In this document: positions 37,575 through 60,900 of the stretch, piece by piece | Position numbering within the stretch: position 1 is the stretch's first letter | Layout of the letters: the number at the start of each line of letters is the position of its first letter | Origin: Lytechinus variegatus | Lineage: Eukaryota > Echinodermata > Echinoidea > Temnopleuroida > Toxopneustidae | NCBI RefSeq assembly: GCF_018143015.1 | Contig: NC_054746.1 | Coordinates: 22,582,464-22,646,463, forward strand | Direction: 5' to 3' | DNA: 64,000 nt | Notes under the pieces: generated by a model | Told to the model about the DNA's origin: nothing | The model's input: only the letters and a program-made list of their open reading frames with translations | Databases searched by the model: none | Position numbers and translations under genes: made by a program

Positions 37575-37599
37575 CCATATAGATGAAGTAAAATCGGAC

Positions 37600-40189
37600 C
37601 AACGAACGTAGAGGGCAGCAACACACAAGCGTGTTGCTCTAAGGAAGGTCAACTCGATACGCGCATGCAACTGAGCTGCGCGCATATTTTATTGTTCATG
37701 ACAACGAAATCAAATGCCGATCAAATACAACAACAAATTAGTAGTGATCAAGAAACGAATATGAAAGAATATGACTACAACGATATCAAAGATAACATTA
37801 AAAAATATGTTGAAGGATATACATAAATATGAAAACATACTTTGATATTTAAAACTTTACAAATGCAAGTTTCAGGAAACTAAAATCATTACCAAATCGG
37901 TGATTGTTGTTATCAGCGATTTCACCAGACGGCTGAATTAGGTGATTTGCGCCGAGACGATTTTGTGACCACTCGCAAAGCATTTCGGGATTGAATATGT
38001 CCCCCTTATTTTCTCTGGGCTCTTCGCTGAACCCATCATCATTCTATGCATAAGCTACATTATGCTCCGTCGTCTGCTTAGATTTCAACCCCCTAGTCTA
38101 GCACTGGTACTTGTTCTGCTAGGCGTCGATCAGCATTTATCTGCAGTCCATATAGGCCGTGACTCATTTATTTATTTATTAGAGCAGCCGGGCAGCAATG
38201 CCAATGGGTATTAAAAAAATAATTCACGTACCTATCAGTAGTATGTTATCATTCCTTTTCACAATTTTCCCCAAAACTTATAAATTTAGAAATACATTCC
38301 AATCAGTAATAAGTGAAGTCTACATCTAACCTAGATCTTGATCATGTTGATCGATAAACCAAAAGCTTCAGTCTCTGTATTTTGGTTGCTCTGCTGAACT
38401 GCGCTGCATGGCTCACTCACCGATGGAGATTATAGTAAAATGTCAGAAATTGTTGAATAAATCCCCAGAAACGACGGTTATTCCTGTCTAGTTGATCGAT
38501 AGACCCAAGATCTAACTTTATTTGTCTAACTAGACAAATGCTCTGACCAGTCTCGATCTGTTTGTTGAAGACGTTGTTCCACACTGGATATCTAAGTAGA
38601 TCTAGAATATATATAGATCTAGCACGACTTGTTGGTATGAGATAGTCTATGCAACAATAAAAAATACTAAAATAATAATAAACTCAAAACAGATGAATTC
38701 CACATTGTCTTTATAGTATAGGACGCCTGAATCTAGACCATTTGAGGGTTGGTCCATGCAAGCTAAGTTTGGTTCAATTAAGGCCAGCCTGCATGGGCTA
38801 GCCGCTAGTTATGATTTTTTTTAGTCCGTTAAATGCCTACATGGTAAAGTCTAGATCTAGAACTAGAAGATTTAATGGTTAAAAAGTTACCGTTAGGCCT
38901 TACCGTTAGGCGTGAAATCTTTAAAATTCGGTTAGAAAATGCATAAAAATAAAATCACGACGAGCTAAGTCACTTTGCTCTTTCACTTTCGAAATTTCTC
39001 CAAAAAAGTATGTGTTCTGCCAGCCAAGCCCAGGCCATGCAGGCCCAGGAAAATTTACCAATTCTTGCAATATGGCAAACAAATTATGTAAATGTCTTTG
39101 ATTGCACAGAATCAATGGTCAAATTAAGATATGGATGCTGTCAATCAAATCTCCTTTCTGCCCAAAATCATAAATTAAGATGGTGTAAAATCTATCTAGC
39201 TCCCATTTCTTCTAGTCTAGGCCTAGATCTAAGTATAACTAAGGTCTAACGCAAAACGATGATGGCACTCTGCAAACGATGTAACATTGCAATCAATTTC
39301 CCAGAATTGGCTGATTTTTCTTAGAAATTATTGAAGAAAACCAGGGAAAATGTGAATAGGTGGCCGTTTATTCAAGCTTTAATTTGGCTTTGGAAGTTTG
39401 GTTGCTCAATGATTATCGACCTTCGACGCGACGCCAGCGCCTGGCTGTGCAGCTCAGCTGCAGCGCAGCGCGCAGCCAATGCAATGCATCCGATGCATGA
39501 GTTTTTTTTTCGCCGTCCATAGTCTCGGACTCGAAGTTGAAATTTAGACCCGGATTTCGGGGATTCGGCGCCTTGTATGAAGATTTATAGACTTAAAAGT
39601 AAAATGCAATTTAAAATTTGAAATCTGACCTTGAACAATCATCGTTGTTAAACATCAGCCCTGAAGCAATTGCACTTCAAATCAGACCAGGCAAATTAGA
39701 CGTCATTGTGTATGTTGCTAGAAGATCTAAGACGAGTCGACTGAAGCCCCAGCGCATCATCAACGTTACTAGTAGCTACGCGACCGGCCCAGACTCGGCG
39801 CACCCAGGCCAGAAAATTGACCTCGATTATTACGGTAGTTGTCTATGCATTTATTAGTGGTGCAGCGAAATTCAGCAGAGGAAAATAAGAGATAAGAGGT
39901 ATCCTCGTCATAGACTTAATATTCCAAAATGAGAAAAAATGTCAAAATCATGATTATTTAAGCTAAATTATTTCTTTAAAAATAAAAGTAATATTTGTAA
40001 TATTTCTACCTAGAATAACCGACCTAATAATTGTTCATTAAAAATATTAAAAATTAACAAATGAAAAAAAATCAACTCGACAAATTTCCGAAAAGTCCCC
40101 CTTATTTTTTAGAGTGGTCACAAAATTTAAGCGGAGTTGACCTTCCTTAGAGCAACACGCTTGTGTGTTGCTGCCCTCTACGTTCGTTG
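37600..40189. mobile_element. 2.59-kb DNA transposon, perfect 56-bp TIRs, 8-bp target duplication
   Basis: The first 56 bases (from CAACGAACGTAGAGGGCAGC to AAGGTCAACTC) recur exactly, inverted, at 40134-40189. AATCGGAC stands directly outside both ends (37592-37599 and 40190-40197), giving a perfect 8-bp duplication. The interior has only short frames (about 80 residues or less) and no transposase motif was recognised, so it looks non-autonomous. It contains many TAGATCT/CTAGATC motifs (38330-39230) and a GC-rich patch at 39420-39540. An 8-bp duplication suits hAT- or P-type transposases, but the CAACG terminus matches no family I know. Zero divergence between the arms points to a recent insertion. 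Confidence 0.93.
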
Positions 40190-41315
40190 AATCGGACAAA
40201 CAAAACACTGAACATTTCATCAAATCGGACAAGGAATAACAAAGTTTTGACATTTTAAAATGTCGCATTATTTCGGTGAAACACTGAACCTACAGGGGCA
40301 AGAGTAGTAGGCCCATGCTTTTATGCATGTTTTCATGAATATGCAAAGAGCAAGCTTCTGTCATATCCCAAATCATTACTTTGTATTTTATTACATGACA
40401 TTATATTTATTAAAATTCGTCCACTGAAACAGAAAAAAAATGTGTAAGATAATCATTGCTGCCATTTTAATTTTTGCAAGGGGGAGATATCACACACAAT
40501 CATTTATGAAAATATGAAATGATTTTATGTGAGGCCTATAACATAAGAAAAATGAAAGTGTGCACAAAACACCAACTGCATATTCATGAAGGCGTACAAC
40601 AGTTTTCATATAATACATTGCTCCGCTTTGGAATTCAGTAGTTTGTTGTCAGATCTGCATAATCACCACCACCGCCATCATCACAAACAACAATCACCAT
40701 GACCATTATTACCATAATGATAATCATCATTATCTTTCTTTATCACCTCAACTCAAATTTCCATTCAGATTTTCTTCTACTAGCCACTAATTATGATATA
40801 AACGACAAACAACACAATCTTCATTGTCAATCCGAACTGCCATCACCAGCTCCATTATATTTACTAATATGAAAGTAAAGGTGATGTTTACCCTGACAAT
40901 AAGTTGGTTTAATAAAAAAATAGGTTTGATGGAAATCCGACAATCCTGCCGACAAAGAATAGTGGAGTAACATTTATTGTTTAAACATTTAGTTTTGATG
41001 ATGTCACCTTTGAGCAGCTTCTCCATAGGTCGCACAATATTGATTAATAAGTTTCCTCAAAATATTAAAAGATCATCAGACAAACTATTTCAACACCCTT
41101 TCTATATGAAAAAAATAATTAATGTTCCATTAGAATTTATGAAAATTATATGATAGGCCTACATGGGGAGATGCTCGCATATGACGTCACAAATTAAAAA
41201 CCTTCAAAGATTCATTAATCTATAATTTTCATAAAATCTTCACCATTTGTCTATTTTTCGGCTTTTATAAAACTAAATTACTGTCAGGACAAACTTTCCC
41301 TTCCACAAACCTGTT
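40190..41315. other. Remnant of TTAA-class repeat around the 2.59-kb insertion, plus CAT/ACC microsatellite
   Basis: Sequence after the insertion (AACATTTCATCAAATCGGAC) resembles the arms of the TTAA-flanked MITEs. 41170-41310 (GCTCGCATATGACGTCACAA, ending GTCAGGACAAACTTTCCCT) resembles their right ends. 40660-40740 is an imperfect CAT/ACC microsatellite. No gene seen. Confidence 0.45.
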
Positions 41316-49708: not shown

Positions 49709-49830
49709 CCCATGATCCTAAATGCATGAAACCTTCTTTTTTCACCACTTGAATTTAACTTACCTATATCATAATAGGTAAGTTAAATTCAAGTGGTGAA
49801 AAAAAGGTTTCATGCATGCGGGATCATGGG
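49709..49830. repeat. Near-perfect 122-base palindrome
   Basis: Arms of about 58 bases around a 6-base ATCATA centre (49768-49773). The inner 27 bases of each arm (ending TTAACTTACCTAT) are exact, the outer parts differ by a few bases. It begins 13 bases after the right TTAA of the family C element. Confidence 0.85.
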
Positions 49831-54960: not shown

Positions 54961-57900
54961 ATGTCGTAAGTTGTATTTTATTTGTCATTTTTGAGAAAAT
55001 GTTCTAGAGAACTCTTCATCATCCGGAGCATATTTACACTCATCTTAGATATATAGTGTTTTTATCGAGTTGAAAATGTGTGTGTTGTGGAAATGAGTAC
55101 TTATGTCCCATCTGTTCAATTTTATGTAATGTTATTGGTAATGACTGGTTCCAGGCATTCTGGCGGGCCAGCTGATGATTGATTCATTTGACAACCGAGT
55201 TTTAGCTCGATCAGAACATTGCAGAATGAAGACCAATTAATTTTTAGTGTTTAGTATGATCCTGTGTGGCTCACTGAGGTCAGAAGATGGCATTTTTGTG
55301 TTCATTCTAATTTCTATTTCTAATGTTGTAGCCTAACCGATTTTTATTCCAATAGTCAATACCCGATCCGATTTTCCCCTTTTTTCTACATTTTTCCGAA
55401 CTCCGATTTTTGACCAGTGGGGAGAAAATCGGATCAGAAAAACCAAAACATAACAAGACAAAAAAAAAAAGGGGCGACATGTTTGCCGTCAAAATGCGCT
55501 GGTGATTTGTTTTGATCTCGGACAAAAGCGGTGGAAGTAAAAGAAGATAAAGGAGAAGAAAATTATGATTTGTTTTTATCTCCGATATTAGTGGAAAGGG
55601 AGGTGGCAGAGAAGATGATGATTTGTTTTGATCTCCGACATAATCGGGGAAGAACAAAAAGATGATGATGATTATTGGTGTCAATTTGTTTTGATCTACG
55701 ACAAAAATTGAGGAAGAAGAAAAACAAGACGATGATATGTTTTGATCTTAAGCGAGGCAAATAAGATTTAGTTGAACACGCTGACATGTGCGGTAATATT
55801 TACGACTATTTGATTATGCGTCCTCTAAGAGTTTACGATTACCTCCGCCATCACTACGATGTTGTAGAGAAGGTGAATAATCTGAATATCATGGTAAACA
55901 ACTCTGGATAATAGTGCGTCTTTTTCGGGGGGTCATGCGACCTTTAAGAGTTTACAATTACCCCCGCCATCACTACGATGTTGTAGAGAAGGTGAATATC
56001 ATGGTAAACAACTCTGGATAATAATGTGTCTTTTTCGGGAGGTCATGCGACCTTTAAGAGTTTACGATTACCTCCGCCATCACTACGATGTTGTAGAGAA
56101 GGTGAATATCATCGTAAACAACTTTGGATAATAGTGTGTCTTTTTCTAGAGGTCATGCGACCTTTAAGAGTTTACGATTACCTTCACCATCACTACGATG
56201 TTGTAGAGAAGGTGAATATCATCAGAAACGACTTCGGATAGTAGTGCTTCCTTTTCGGTAAGTAATGCGACCTCTAAAAGTTCACGACAGACTCCGCCAT
56301 CACCACGATGTTGTAGAGAAGAGGCCTATCGTTGATCGGCGGTAGTGTCGCGCGCTGGAACGTCATCTTTTCCTTCCTCCGATTATGTCGGAGATCAAAA
56401 CAAATCATCTTCTTCCTCCGCTTTCGTCGGAGATCAAAACAAATTCTGCCATCAGTGTAGCTTGTAGCATTTGTCCACGTGCCGCCACATACAAATTTTA
56501 ATGTATTCTTTTGTTTTTGAATATCTTCCGATCCGATTTCGATTTTAGGAGCAAAACTTCCGAACGGAACTCCGATCCCGTAATTGCTCTAACTTACAAC
56601 ATTTGTTCATTCATTGATTGTTGATGACAACATGAATCACCAAGCAAAACAGAGATACAATCATTGTCATTGAGTCAATTGAAAATCATGTTTATTTCTG
56701 TAGGGCCTAGTGGACATCTACAAATGATGAATATTGATGTCATAAAAAATAGAATTAAAAAATTATGGTAAAGAGAAATTACTTGGCAGAAGCTTGTTTT
56801 TGCCTAACCCAGGGAACTCCCGCCCGCATAGCCGGCGGGAGCCCAGGACCTTACCGTGTAATTGACCATACTCACGGGACTAGCGTGAAGTATGGTCAAA
56901 ATCTCCGAATAAATAGTTAAAACAGAAATCCAGCACTTACCACGATTATATGGATGAAGGTCTAACGAGTGGCAGTTTCCTGACATCTGGGCACAAACTG
57001 GAACCTCAAAAAAAACGAAAAGTTTTCTCCTTCTACCCCCGTCTCGATTGGCCATTTTTGTTATGAATCGTAACAAAATGGCCGATCAAACGCGATCAAA
57101 TAGGATTGATTCACTTGCATCAGATTTTACCATTGGTCAGGCAATCATTGTGTGAGTGTTCAATGTTGTACGACTTGATGTGATAGGTGGCACAACTAAG
57201 TACGGTAGTTGCATTCAGTCGACAGGAGGTTGTACAACAGTACTAATGGGGTAACTCTCCACATGGCCTGCTAGGCACCTGCGTCGAAAAGGGTTGCGTT
57301 TTAGCACCATTCACAGGTAAATCACCTATTAGGGTAACCTTTTCTCTCTCAATTCACGCCATTAAGGGTTGCTAATTTGGTTATGAAGATTGCGCCATTA
57401 AGGGGTGCAAATTTGAAGGTAGAAAATTTGGGCAAATTTGAGGAAACCCGGGAGCAGAGCAGCCATACATGAACACACCATGGATGGAGTGATTTAAAGG
57501 GATACAAAATAATTGCACATGCCAGGTGCCAGCCAGCGCAGCACTTATGAGAGTTACCCCCCATACAGTCCTCGTTAGTGGACTAGTACACCCGGCTCTA
57601 TACTAGGCAGCACGTGTTACCTATACCACATGTCCACAGGTCGCAGAGGATGATATGCTATTATGTTCCGGGCCTGTTAGAAGCGACTATGCTTGGCTTG
57701 CAAGGATGCAAACAAATTAATATGATTATAATGTATGTATTTTTCAATACATAACTGGTATGGATTCCATTTTTTCAAGTTTTTATAAAAATCAGTTAAA
57801 CAAATGGCAAGTAATGCATGTCAAGGCAAGCAACATTTTTCACTTGCATTCATTAATTTAGGCTAAAAGATGGCTGTATTCAAAGTGGCTATCATAAAAA

Positions 57901-60900
57901 AGAAAAAATAGAGGTGTCCTTGAGAGTAGTCATGTTGGCCTTACTTTCACTAACTTCAAAAATTGAATTTATACCTGTTGTATTAATTCAACATCAGTGA
58001 GTATGGTATCAAATTGATCAATTTCGATGTTTACAACCACTTACTGTATCAAATTAGGGGACTTCCTTGTTCGGGCCTCTTAGGGTGGCTTTCTCATGGG
58101 TTACGCCATTTAGGGTTGCAAATTTAGTTAATATATTATAGTGCATTTCTGAGGTTGTTGGTAACGGGTGGGTAGCAGTCCATGTGGAGAGTGACCCCCC
58201 CTCGTGTATATTCATTGTTAATGTTTAGGTATTTGAATTCAACCAATTAGTTGCAATAAAGACCCCCTGATGATGTCTACAATGTTTTATCCATGTATTT
58301 TTTAAAATTCATTTTTTCTTTCTCTCTTCAGGCTGTTAACAAAGCCCAAGACAGAAATGAGCCAAGAGGAACTGGCTAAGAGAGAGGAAGAAGAATTCAA
58401 AACTGGTCCCCTCTCTGTCCTCACTCAGTCTGTCAAAAACAACACACAAGTTCTTATCAACTGCAGAAACAACAAGAAGCTACTAGGACGTGTCAAGGCG
58501 TTTGACAGGTACATGAAAAGATTCAGACTAATGGGGTGTTGCAAGTAACTTGCAATCAATTTCAAGTCTATTTTTGGTCCCTAAATATCAGTTGTAAATT
58601 TGCAACAGAATATTTGCAATTGATCGCAGATATTTTCTTGCAACACCCCCTAAGAATAATCTTGGCAAATGTTGTCGAACTTTCAACTGTGGTATAATGA
58701 GACAAGTTTATGCAAAAAGTTGAATTTTCATCCTTTGTGAAATAGATTTTTTTTTCTGGGGGTGGGGGGCATTTAAGTCTTTTTAAAGGCCCCCCACTTG
58801 AGATCTCGGCCGTCGATTGCGTTGAAATTGGCATGCAGGTTGTCTTGGACATAATCTACAAAATTGTATAGTTGAATTGCATGCAAATTGCTATGAAGTG
58901 ATTATGCAAATTTATGCGTGATTAGTATTCAAAATAATAATTTTTTTCTCTAACTCTGTAAATAAATCTCCAAATGTTCCTATTTTAGGTATACATATGT
59001 AGAAGCACTTTGTGGTGTTCTTGGCAATGTATGTGGAAAAGACTTGAAAGTAAAAAGTCAGCGAGCAGGTGGTAAAAAAAATTGTGCTGCGAAAATATTG
59101 CACGAATCATCGAGGGGAGGCCTCCGAGGCCCCGGGTCTAAATAGGGTTTGTGTGTCATAATTCCTGTTCGTAATTTTATTATATGACTGCATATGTCCT
59201 TAAAACTGATATGATATGGATCATATATAATCAGACATGATTTTGTAGTGGAGTTCGGTAGTTTCAACTCATCACCGCGATGATTAAAACCCAAAATGGC
59301 TTGCTTGATAATAACTTAAGAAATGTTAGTTTTATCATCAACTTGAAGACCTCACAGTCGAAGGTATGAATTTTGGCTTCATGCAATAGAATCCTTCTAC
59401 ATCAATCCTTGATTTCCTTTCTCTCCTAGTTTGAAGTTTTCATGCATTGTGCTGATCTTGAAAAGGAAAACTCAATGAATTTATGTTAAAGGAGAATGAA
59501 ACCATTGGAACAAGATAGCTTGTGTGAAAACACAAAAATCAAAGAAACAGATCAACAAAAGTTTGAGAAAAATCGGACAAATAATGAGTAAGTTATGAGC
59601 ATTTGAATATTGCGATCACTAATGCTATGGAGATAGCAAATCGGCAATGCGACAAAGATGTGTGATGTCACTTGTGAACAACTCTCCCTATTACTTTAGT
59701 ATATATTTCACTTGAATTGCCTCTTTTATCACATCTATCCATAGATCATGTGTTCTTTCTACATGAGGGCATGTAATACATATTTTTTAAGAATACATCT
59801 TGGATAAAGAGTTTGTATCATCATAAGAAAAAGTAAAAAGAGACATTTTGAGGGTATTTTATAGTCCACCAAAGGGAAAGTTGTTCATCAGTGACATCAC
59901 ACATCCTTGTCGCATTGCCAATGGGAGGATCACCATAGCATTAGTGATTGCAATATTCAAATGCTCATAACTTTCTCATTATTTGTCCGATTTTTCTCAA
60001 ACTCTCTTTATTCTTATTCTTTGATTTTTCTGTTTCTACACAAGGCTCTTTGTTCCAAAGGTTTCATTCCCCTTTAACGTTATAACCTTTAAATTCACTT
60101 GGAACGTTGTTTTGCCTCATCTTGATGAGGTGATCTGCCAATACTCTTTGCAAATATTTGGTATAATATTATGAATATAATGATAAAATGTCCATTTATA
60201 TAGTAGCACAGTTGCTGTACATACATACAGTACATATACTCTAATGCACGTGATGCTTGGTATCATAGTATTACCCCGGTTGTAGCTGAGCTTCCATATA
60301 AATGCTGTAAAAGCATTCAAAAGGAGTAAATTCTGCCAGGTACAAATTCATCCAATCTGGTTTGAGTTCAGCGCAATGTAGACCAGTTCTTGCTAAGAAA
60401 AATGTATAATGGCTGGGATTCAAACCCATGACCCTGTTTCAAAGTTCCCACTGGGTATCAGGTAGTCCTACCTTATATCATGAGGCCAAAGAAAATTATT
60501 AGCAGACTGTCATGACATGGTTTTAATTTTCTTTTATTAGAATTTGACCACCACGTACCCCTACCCCCCCATTATTAAAACCCTGTGAAAGGTGTGGTCC
60601 ATGTCATGAGCAGAAGACCCATACCTTCAGTCTTAGAGTGTATGGCTCTATGATATGCCAGGGGTCCTCACCGTACACAAGAAAAAGTGAAGATTTATGA
60701 ACTTTCATACCTGAAAAAAAAACAATGAAAAATACAGAACGACCTACTCTATTTATTCCTCTATGTTATGACAAACGAACACTTCTCTTTATTTGGCTTA
60801 ATGTAATGTGGTTTTTTGTTTCAACCTTTTCTACAGACATTGCAACATGGTCCTTGAAAATGTAAAAGAGATGTGGACGGAGACACCCAAAGCAGGAAAG

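Follow-up and report, generated by a model that had tools for sequence, protein, structure and literature searches.

The window, a 64,000-nucleotide stretch of Lytechinus variegatus DNA, contains a segment of about 2.6 kb with long perfect inverted ends and a short flanking duplication. This raises the question whether the segment is a transposon and, if so, whether it moved recently and which transposase mobilises it.

Boundaries and parts of the window copy

The element comprises 2,590 bp (window 37600-40189) and is bounded by perfect 56-bp terminal inverted repeats (TIRs): the left arm at 37600-37655 (forward strand) is the exact reverse complement of the right arm at 40134-40189 (reverse strand), with a mismatch at the next base inward. 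An 8-bp target site duplication (TSD), AATCGGAC, flanks the copy at 37592-37599 and 40190-40197; the same word is also present elsewhere in the window, at 40223 and 59571. The 2.59-kb element with perfect 56-bp TIRs and an 8-bp TSD, as described in an earlier note on this DNA, was exact on re-measurement. In a scan for perfect inverted repeats of at least 25 bp with arms within 10 kb, the 56-bp pair was the longest of the window; next came repeats of at most 44 bp in repetitive DNA at 12.1-12.5 kb, and three pairs measured 29-31 bp.

Within each arm lies a palindrome formed by AGCAACAC, a 6-nt loop and GTGTTGCT (37617-37638 on the left, 40151-40172 on the right). Its fold z-score is -1.96 and 8 of 200 shuffles folded equally well, which is weak evidence alone. 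Further inward, a 13-bp subterminal inverted repeat, ATTTTGTGACCAC, was found at 37960-37972 (forward strand), 360 bp from the left end, and at 40114-40126 (reverse strand), 63 bp from the right end. The body between the arms (37656-40133) is non-coding as judged from its frames and a Pfam scan of ten of them. Its longest stop-to-stop frame has 98 aa, and the ten scanned frames, out of 48 listed, gave neither a Pfam match above cut-off (best E-value 0.06) nor a THAP remnant. In agreement with the earlier observation of no long ORF and no known transposase, these results revealed no transposase gene in the window copy.

A dispersed family with common ends

The host genome (870 Mb, 33 contigs) was searched with the first 26 bp of the arm, allowing up to 3 mismatches, which yielded 764 forward and 767 reverse matches and 0 for the reversed control; the first 100 places were listed. 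A whole-genome search with the element, in which the best 40 of 1,940 candidates were scored, listed at least 138 matches. The first 37 listed rows, the window copy included, showed near-full-length coverage at 93-100% identity and lay at dispersed sites. The genome search that had been proposed earlier, for longer copies with the same ends and a transposase ORF, returned many further copies with these ends; those that were read showed no transposase gene.

Three subfamilies with common ends were distinguished, of 2.6 kb, 1.6 kb (L017, L018) and 1.7 kb (L022). The two smaller ones have the arm and 110-165 bp per end in common with the 2.6-kb subfamily, at 75-85% identity. L017 and L022 are 72% alike across about 1.4 kb, whereas the likeness of either to the 2.6-kb body is confined to short matches of no more than 67 bp. 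For the 1.6/1.7-kb type, 44 exact matches to the left end and 71 places with the right end were obtained; the nearest right end was 1.49-1.65 kb away for 31 of the 44 left ends and further away, up to megabases, for the other 13. Two of these distant pairs were read, and their insides were of the same subfamily with insertions.

The 13-bp subterminal inverted repeat is present in all three subfamilies, the bodies of which otherwise differ. Counted from the right end, its right copy is at 63 bp in seven of eight elements (67 bp in L025); counted from the left end, its left copy is at 347-360 bp, again in seven of eight (939 bp in L016, which carries extra sequence). In the smaller subfamilies the left copy has 1-2 mismatches. 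While in the window copy alone a 12-mer shared between the subterminal stretches arose in 9 of 300 shuffles, the repeat is convincing because it recurs at similar places in three subfamilies.

Twenty ends without a nearby exact partner were sampled. Ten belonged to the known subfamilies and two were TIR-only elements (L073, L076), whereas in L078 the likeness to the arm stopped after 49 bp. The remaining seven (L067, L070, L072, L079, L080, L081, L083) had an unfamiliar inside after 26-33 bp, L070 with a piece of the 2.6-kb body close behind the end. As these ends had been chosen by an exact 26-bp match, the 26-bp lower limit was set by the search, and a short end core was dropped as an argument for a P-type transposase. 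Part of the arm also occurs elsewhere: AACGTAGAGGGCAGCAACACAC with another inside, for example at C1:22109878 and C1:14352630, gave 116 matches, and 32 of the 41 with printed letters continue with AATACC. The places are mostly single, and those on C1 and C2 are absent from the list of exact ends, so that their outer bases differ. A stretch of 22 bp of the arm is apparently also part of another repeat.

Copies were also found in clusters at C13:26460086-26467645, C2:50312081-50319939 and C9:25516994-25522626, where they lie 0-3 bp apart or their matches slightly overlap. In the C13 cluster they are arranged head to tail and about 95 bp are missing at the joint. Such abutting copies may have arisen by insertion at ends or by tandem duplication. 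Text searches of the literature with the end and subterminal sequences gave no match, and the titles and abstract openings on sea-urchin P elements and MITEs and on Lytechinus transposons do not describe the family, for which an entry in a curated library is possible.

The age of the window copy was estimated from its body. When the window copy was grouped with its seven best matches, its divergence from the majority sequence of these eight close copies was 0.66% substitutions, within a range of 0.23-0.85%. Body divergence from the window copy in 16 relatives, namely the seven best matches and nine copies from C1 and C2, is 0.8-4.1% substitutions (mean 2.0%). Of their 32 arms, 29 carry no substitution, gaps in the arms not being reliably counted; the remaining three have 1, 5 and 9 substitutions, and the latter two look like partly replaced arms. 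With 29 of 32 arms unsubstituted while the bodies diverge, the family keeps its arms constant, so that perfection of the arms is not enough to date a single insertion. The window copy moved recently, as its low body divergence points out; the earlier note had drawn this conclusion from the perfect arms, and the recent movement stands while the arms as dating evidence do not.

Perfect and mutually different 8-bp TSDs were obtained for 17 elements among the loci that were read. The remaining listed flanks were unpaired, with the partner end in a separate piece or outside the sample, or with unequal flanks (L009, L010 at 19, L015, L018, L021 and L076). The 51 distinct flank words, in which a few insertions with unequal flanks count as two, define a palindromic, RTTnnAAC-like target: position 1 is a purine in 44 words, position 2 is T in 29, position 7 is A in 40 and position 8 is C in 33. 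In L010, a 2.6-kb copy is nested in a 1.6-kb element at AGGTAAAC. With the insert removed and one TSD copy retained, L010 gave a gap-free match of 110 bp with 3 differences to L017 and 2 to L018; against L017 the score was 104 with one TSD copy and 94 with both copies kept. L017 and L018 thus represent a paralogous empty site for the L010 insertion, and movement is by cut and paste or by a process with the same outcome. The hundreds of dispersed ends, the different TSDs on 17 elements and the paralogous empty site uphold the earlier call of a transposon, and the element is almost certainly a non-autonomous DNA transposon. The same three observations, the empty site being counted as a refutation, speak against a non-transposon origin, be it a duplication that produced the inverted repeat or an artefact of assembly; nothing was found in favour of this explanation, which is hardly credible. 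At L010:19 and in L072, ACAAGCGT is doubled with 3 bases between, which resembles an excision footprint.

Candidate transposases

Matches to transposases of four groups were found in the genome: 63 hAT, 42 P, 31 MULE and 2 KDZ. None of these 138 matches lay within 10 kb of the listed ends (overlapping sets of 255 and 188, a minority of about 1,531), and the nearest of them were a hAT match at 10.7 kb, a MULE match whose distance to a left end of the 2.6-kb type was 14.7 kb, and a P match at 108 kb. A partner may have been missed among the remaining ends of the about 1,531. Several of the 42 P matches lie in long open frames. Three of equal score, at C2:17118073, C2:17526661 and C4:27127505, have open frames of 660 codons and are perhaps a recent P element family. 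The family end was absent from 8 stretches of about 2.2 kb upstream of P matches. Boundaries of P and hAT copies determined by pairwise alignment showed no resemblance to the family end, a result that is not decisive. When hAT and P stretches were scanned for the subterminal repeat, the arm core and other end motifs, six scattered matches with 2 mismatches each were obtained and none was near-exact.

Several long copies were considered as autonomous members and rejected. L009 and L023 together with L024 hold a nested non-coding element with the TIR CAGAGTTATCAATAGACAGAGTGGCGA in a family repeat. This element is inserted in the arm palindrome at two loci (L009:3547-9527 and L024:8313), and in L009 it has the 8-bp TSD AAGCTTGT. 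L011, L020 and L021 contain extra inserted sequence, with long retroelement-like frames in L011 and L021. In two long pairs of the 1.6-kb type, L088 and L089, the inside corresponds to the 1.6-kb family plus insertions, and no transposase-like frame was apparent by eye. Among the ends with an unfamiliar inside, L067 was traced inward for 5.4 kb, L080 for 4.4 kb and L083 for 3.4 kb; neither a partner end (up to 4 mismatches in 17 allowed) nor a convincing gene was found. Except for a 60-bp repeat, the sequence inside L067 is single copy, and a frame there that had been considered a host gene was dropped as such because Pfam gave no match.

The ends themselves were then compared with the described superfamilies. 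The CAACG end matches the motif YARNG, which is non-specific and is also used by hAT elements. The 8-bp TSD found as 17 perfect pairs agrees with the P superfamily, as does a GT..AC palindromic target, which hAT fits too; the subterminal inverted repeat behind the TIR is a further P feature, likewise non-specific. The end, the TSD and the target all fit both superfamilies and hence cannot tell P and hAT apart. YARNG is given as the end consensus of the P superfamily (PMC2820524), which overturns the earlier statement that CAACG fits neither hAT nor P. Given this fit and a similar non-autonomous P element of medaka (PMC2820524), the suggestion of a new group is not needed, and the family is probably of a known kind. 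For the P element the natural target is reported as GTCCGGAC, and for 1360 as the 7-bp GTTNAAC (PMC3276498).

Our tentative reading, towards which the subterminal repeat and the likeness to the medaka element lean, is that the mobiliser may well be P-type. A P/THAP9-like transposase encoded elsewhere in the genome would bind the end repeat and the subterminal repeat, excise the element and reinsert it with an 8-bp stagger, the element body being carried as cargo. Drosophila P has a 31-bp TIR and an 11-bp subterminal repeat (PMC7776569), and Anopheles P elements have TIRs of 27-31 bp and 8-bp TSDs, with P-MITEs of unrelated centres (PMC1562414). In zebrafish, P has a 13-bp TIR and a 12-bp subterminal repeat (PMC10983969). 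The TIRs of described P elements thus measure 13-31 bp in these reports (PMC2820524, PMC1562414, PMC7776569, PMC10983969) in contrast to 56 bp here.

Among these systems, the medaka element Izanagi, whose TIR of 27 bp opens with CAATGA and whose TSD is 8 bp long, resembles the window family in its TIRs, TSD, CAAYGA start, multiple copies and lack of a transposase gene (PMC2820524). It is, however, 1,316 bp long and retains THAP domain traces, whereas the window element has 2,590 bp, a 56-bp TIR and no THAP trace in the scanned frames. The P-MITEs of Anopheles gambiae share the 8-bp TSD, the fixed ends and a centre unrelated to P (PMC1562414), but their parent P elements are known, while the parent of the window family was not found. 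Zebrafish Pdre/THAP9 likewise combines a TIR, a remote subterminal inverted repeat, an 8-bp TSD and internally deleted copies (PMC10983969); its TIR CATACCTGTCAAC (13 bp) and subterminal repeat TGTTTAAACCAA are unlike those of the window family in sequence.

The main rival reading, that the same non-autonomous element is moved by a hAT transposase, is possible but less likely than a P-type mobiliser. The 8-bp TSD and the CAACG end, through YARNG, agree with hAT, the nTnnnnAn target pattern is present, and the genome holds 63 matches to the hAT dimerisation domain. On the other hand, a lone subterminal repeat of 13 bp, placed at unequal but fixed distances, is less typical of hAT elements. The family end was absent from all 30 hAT loci checked (the stronger ones of the 63 matches, with 1.5 kb on each side), and the hAT match closest to a listed end, at 10.7 kb, was measured from a AACGTAGAGGGCAGCAACACAC-type place. 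The target also fits that of hobo, reported as NTNNNNAN and GTNCGNAC (PMC3276498), and hAT transposases may need 100-200 bp per end with subterminal repeats (PMC10368747). Against this, hAT TIRs are described as usually, though not strictly, 10-25 bp long (PMC3942097) compared to 56 bp here. The BuT2-derivative hAT elements resemble the window family in their 8-bp TSD, non-coding nature and multiple copies but have 12-bp TIRs (PMC3942097), and no hAT transposase with the ends of the window family was seen.

It is unlikely that the family is an orphan served by a transposase outside hAT and P, be it KDZ/Zisupton, Mutator-like, Merlin or undescribed. Mutator-like elements can have long TIRs, and the failure to find a partner among the listed ends would fit such an origin; none of the 31 Mutator-like matches, however, was within 10 kb of these ends. 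An 8-bp TSD is reported for Zisupton (PMC12730594), but only two KDZ matches above cut-off were obtained, which lie 3.6 kb apart, one with two stops and neither with a listed end within 10 kb.

If the P-type reading is correct, non-autonomous P-like elements underwent a large, recent expansion here, outside flies and mosquitoes, in a genome that retains P transposase genes with long open frames. The family would then provide a natural system for studying the end requirements of a P-type enzyme. Fixed ends and a fixed subterminal repeat around differing insides mark the sites that are likely required.

TIR-only elements and other inverted repeats

At 28 places two arms were found nearly tip to tip, identified as exact 14-bp arm stretches with 0-30 bp between them. 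Eleven of these have exactly the 6-nt spacing of the arm palindrome and none is closer; the centres are of several kinds. When exact 13-bp outer arms were searched with total lengths of 26-56 bp allowed, nine places were obtained, seven of 56 bp and one each of 51 and 48 bp, and arm-to-arm remnants of 26-47 bp were absent from this search. L073 is a TIR-only element of 60 bp with the 8-bp TSD GTTTGACC, and L076 one of 57 bp with unequal flanks.

Drosophila P cuts 17 nt inside the repeat (PMC7776569), so that scars with about 17 bp per arm might be expected from a P-type transposase. The missing 26-47-bp remnants give no support for such a cut, and the idea that the TIR-only elements are P-type excision scars is weakened, as nothing was found at these lengths. 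A fold-back of repair synthesis at the arm palindrome might generate the 56-bp form, as might a jump between the arms via the shared GTGTTGCT. That the family is the substrate of a transposase in no described superfamily, with the 56-bp palindromes as by-products of its cutting, is very improbable. The TIR-only 56-bp palindromes offer a readable trace of internal loss in such elements.

Three further inverted structures were noted in the window. At 55617-56409, perfect 31-bp inverted ends surround 793 bp, and a flanking duplication is not obvious. At 59560-60003, perfect 29-bp inverted ends, AGTTTGAGAAAAATCGGACAAATAATGAG, which contain AATCGGAC, surround 444 bp. A near-perfect palindrome of 68 bp at 49737-49804 is flanked by GAAACCTTC and AGGTTTC, giving a larger hairpin.
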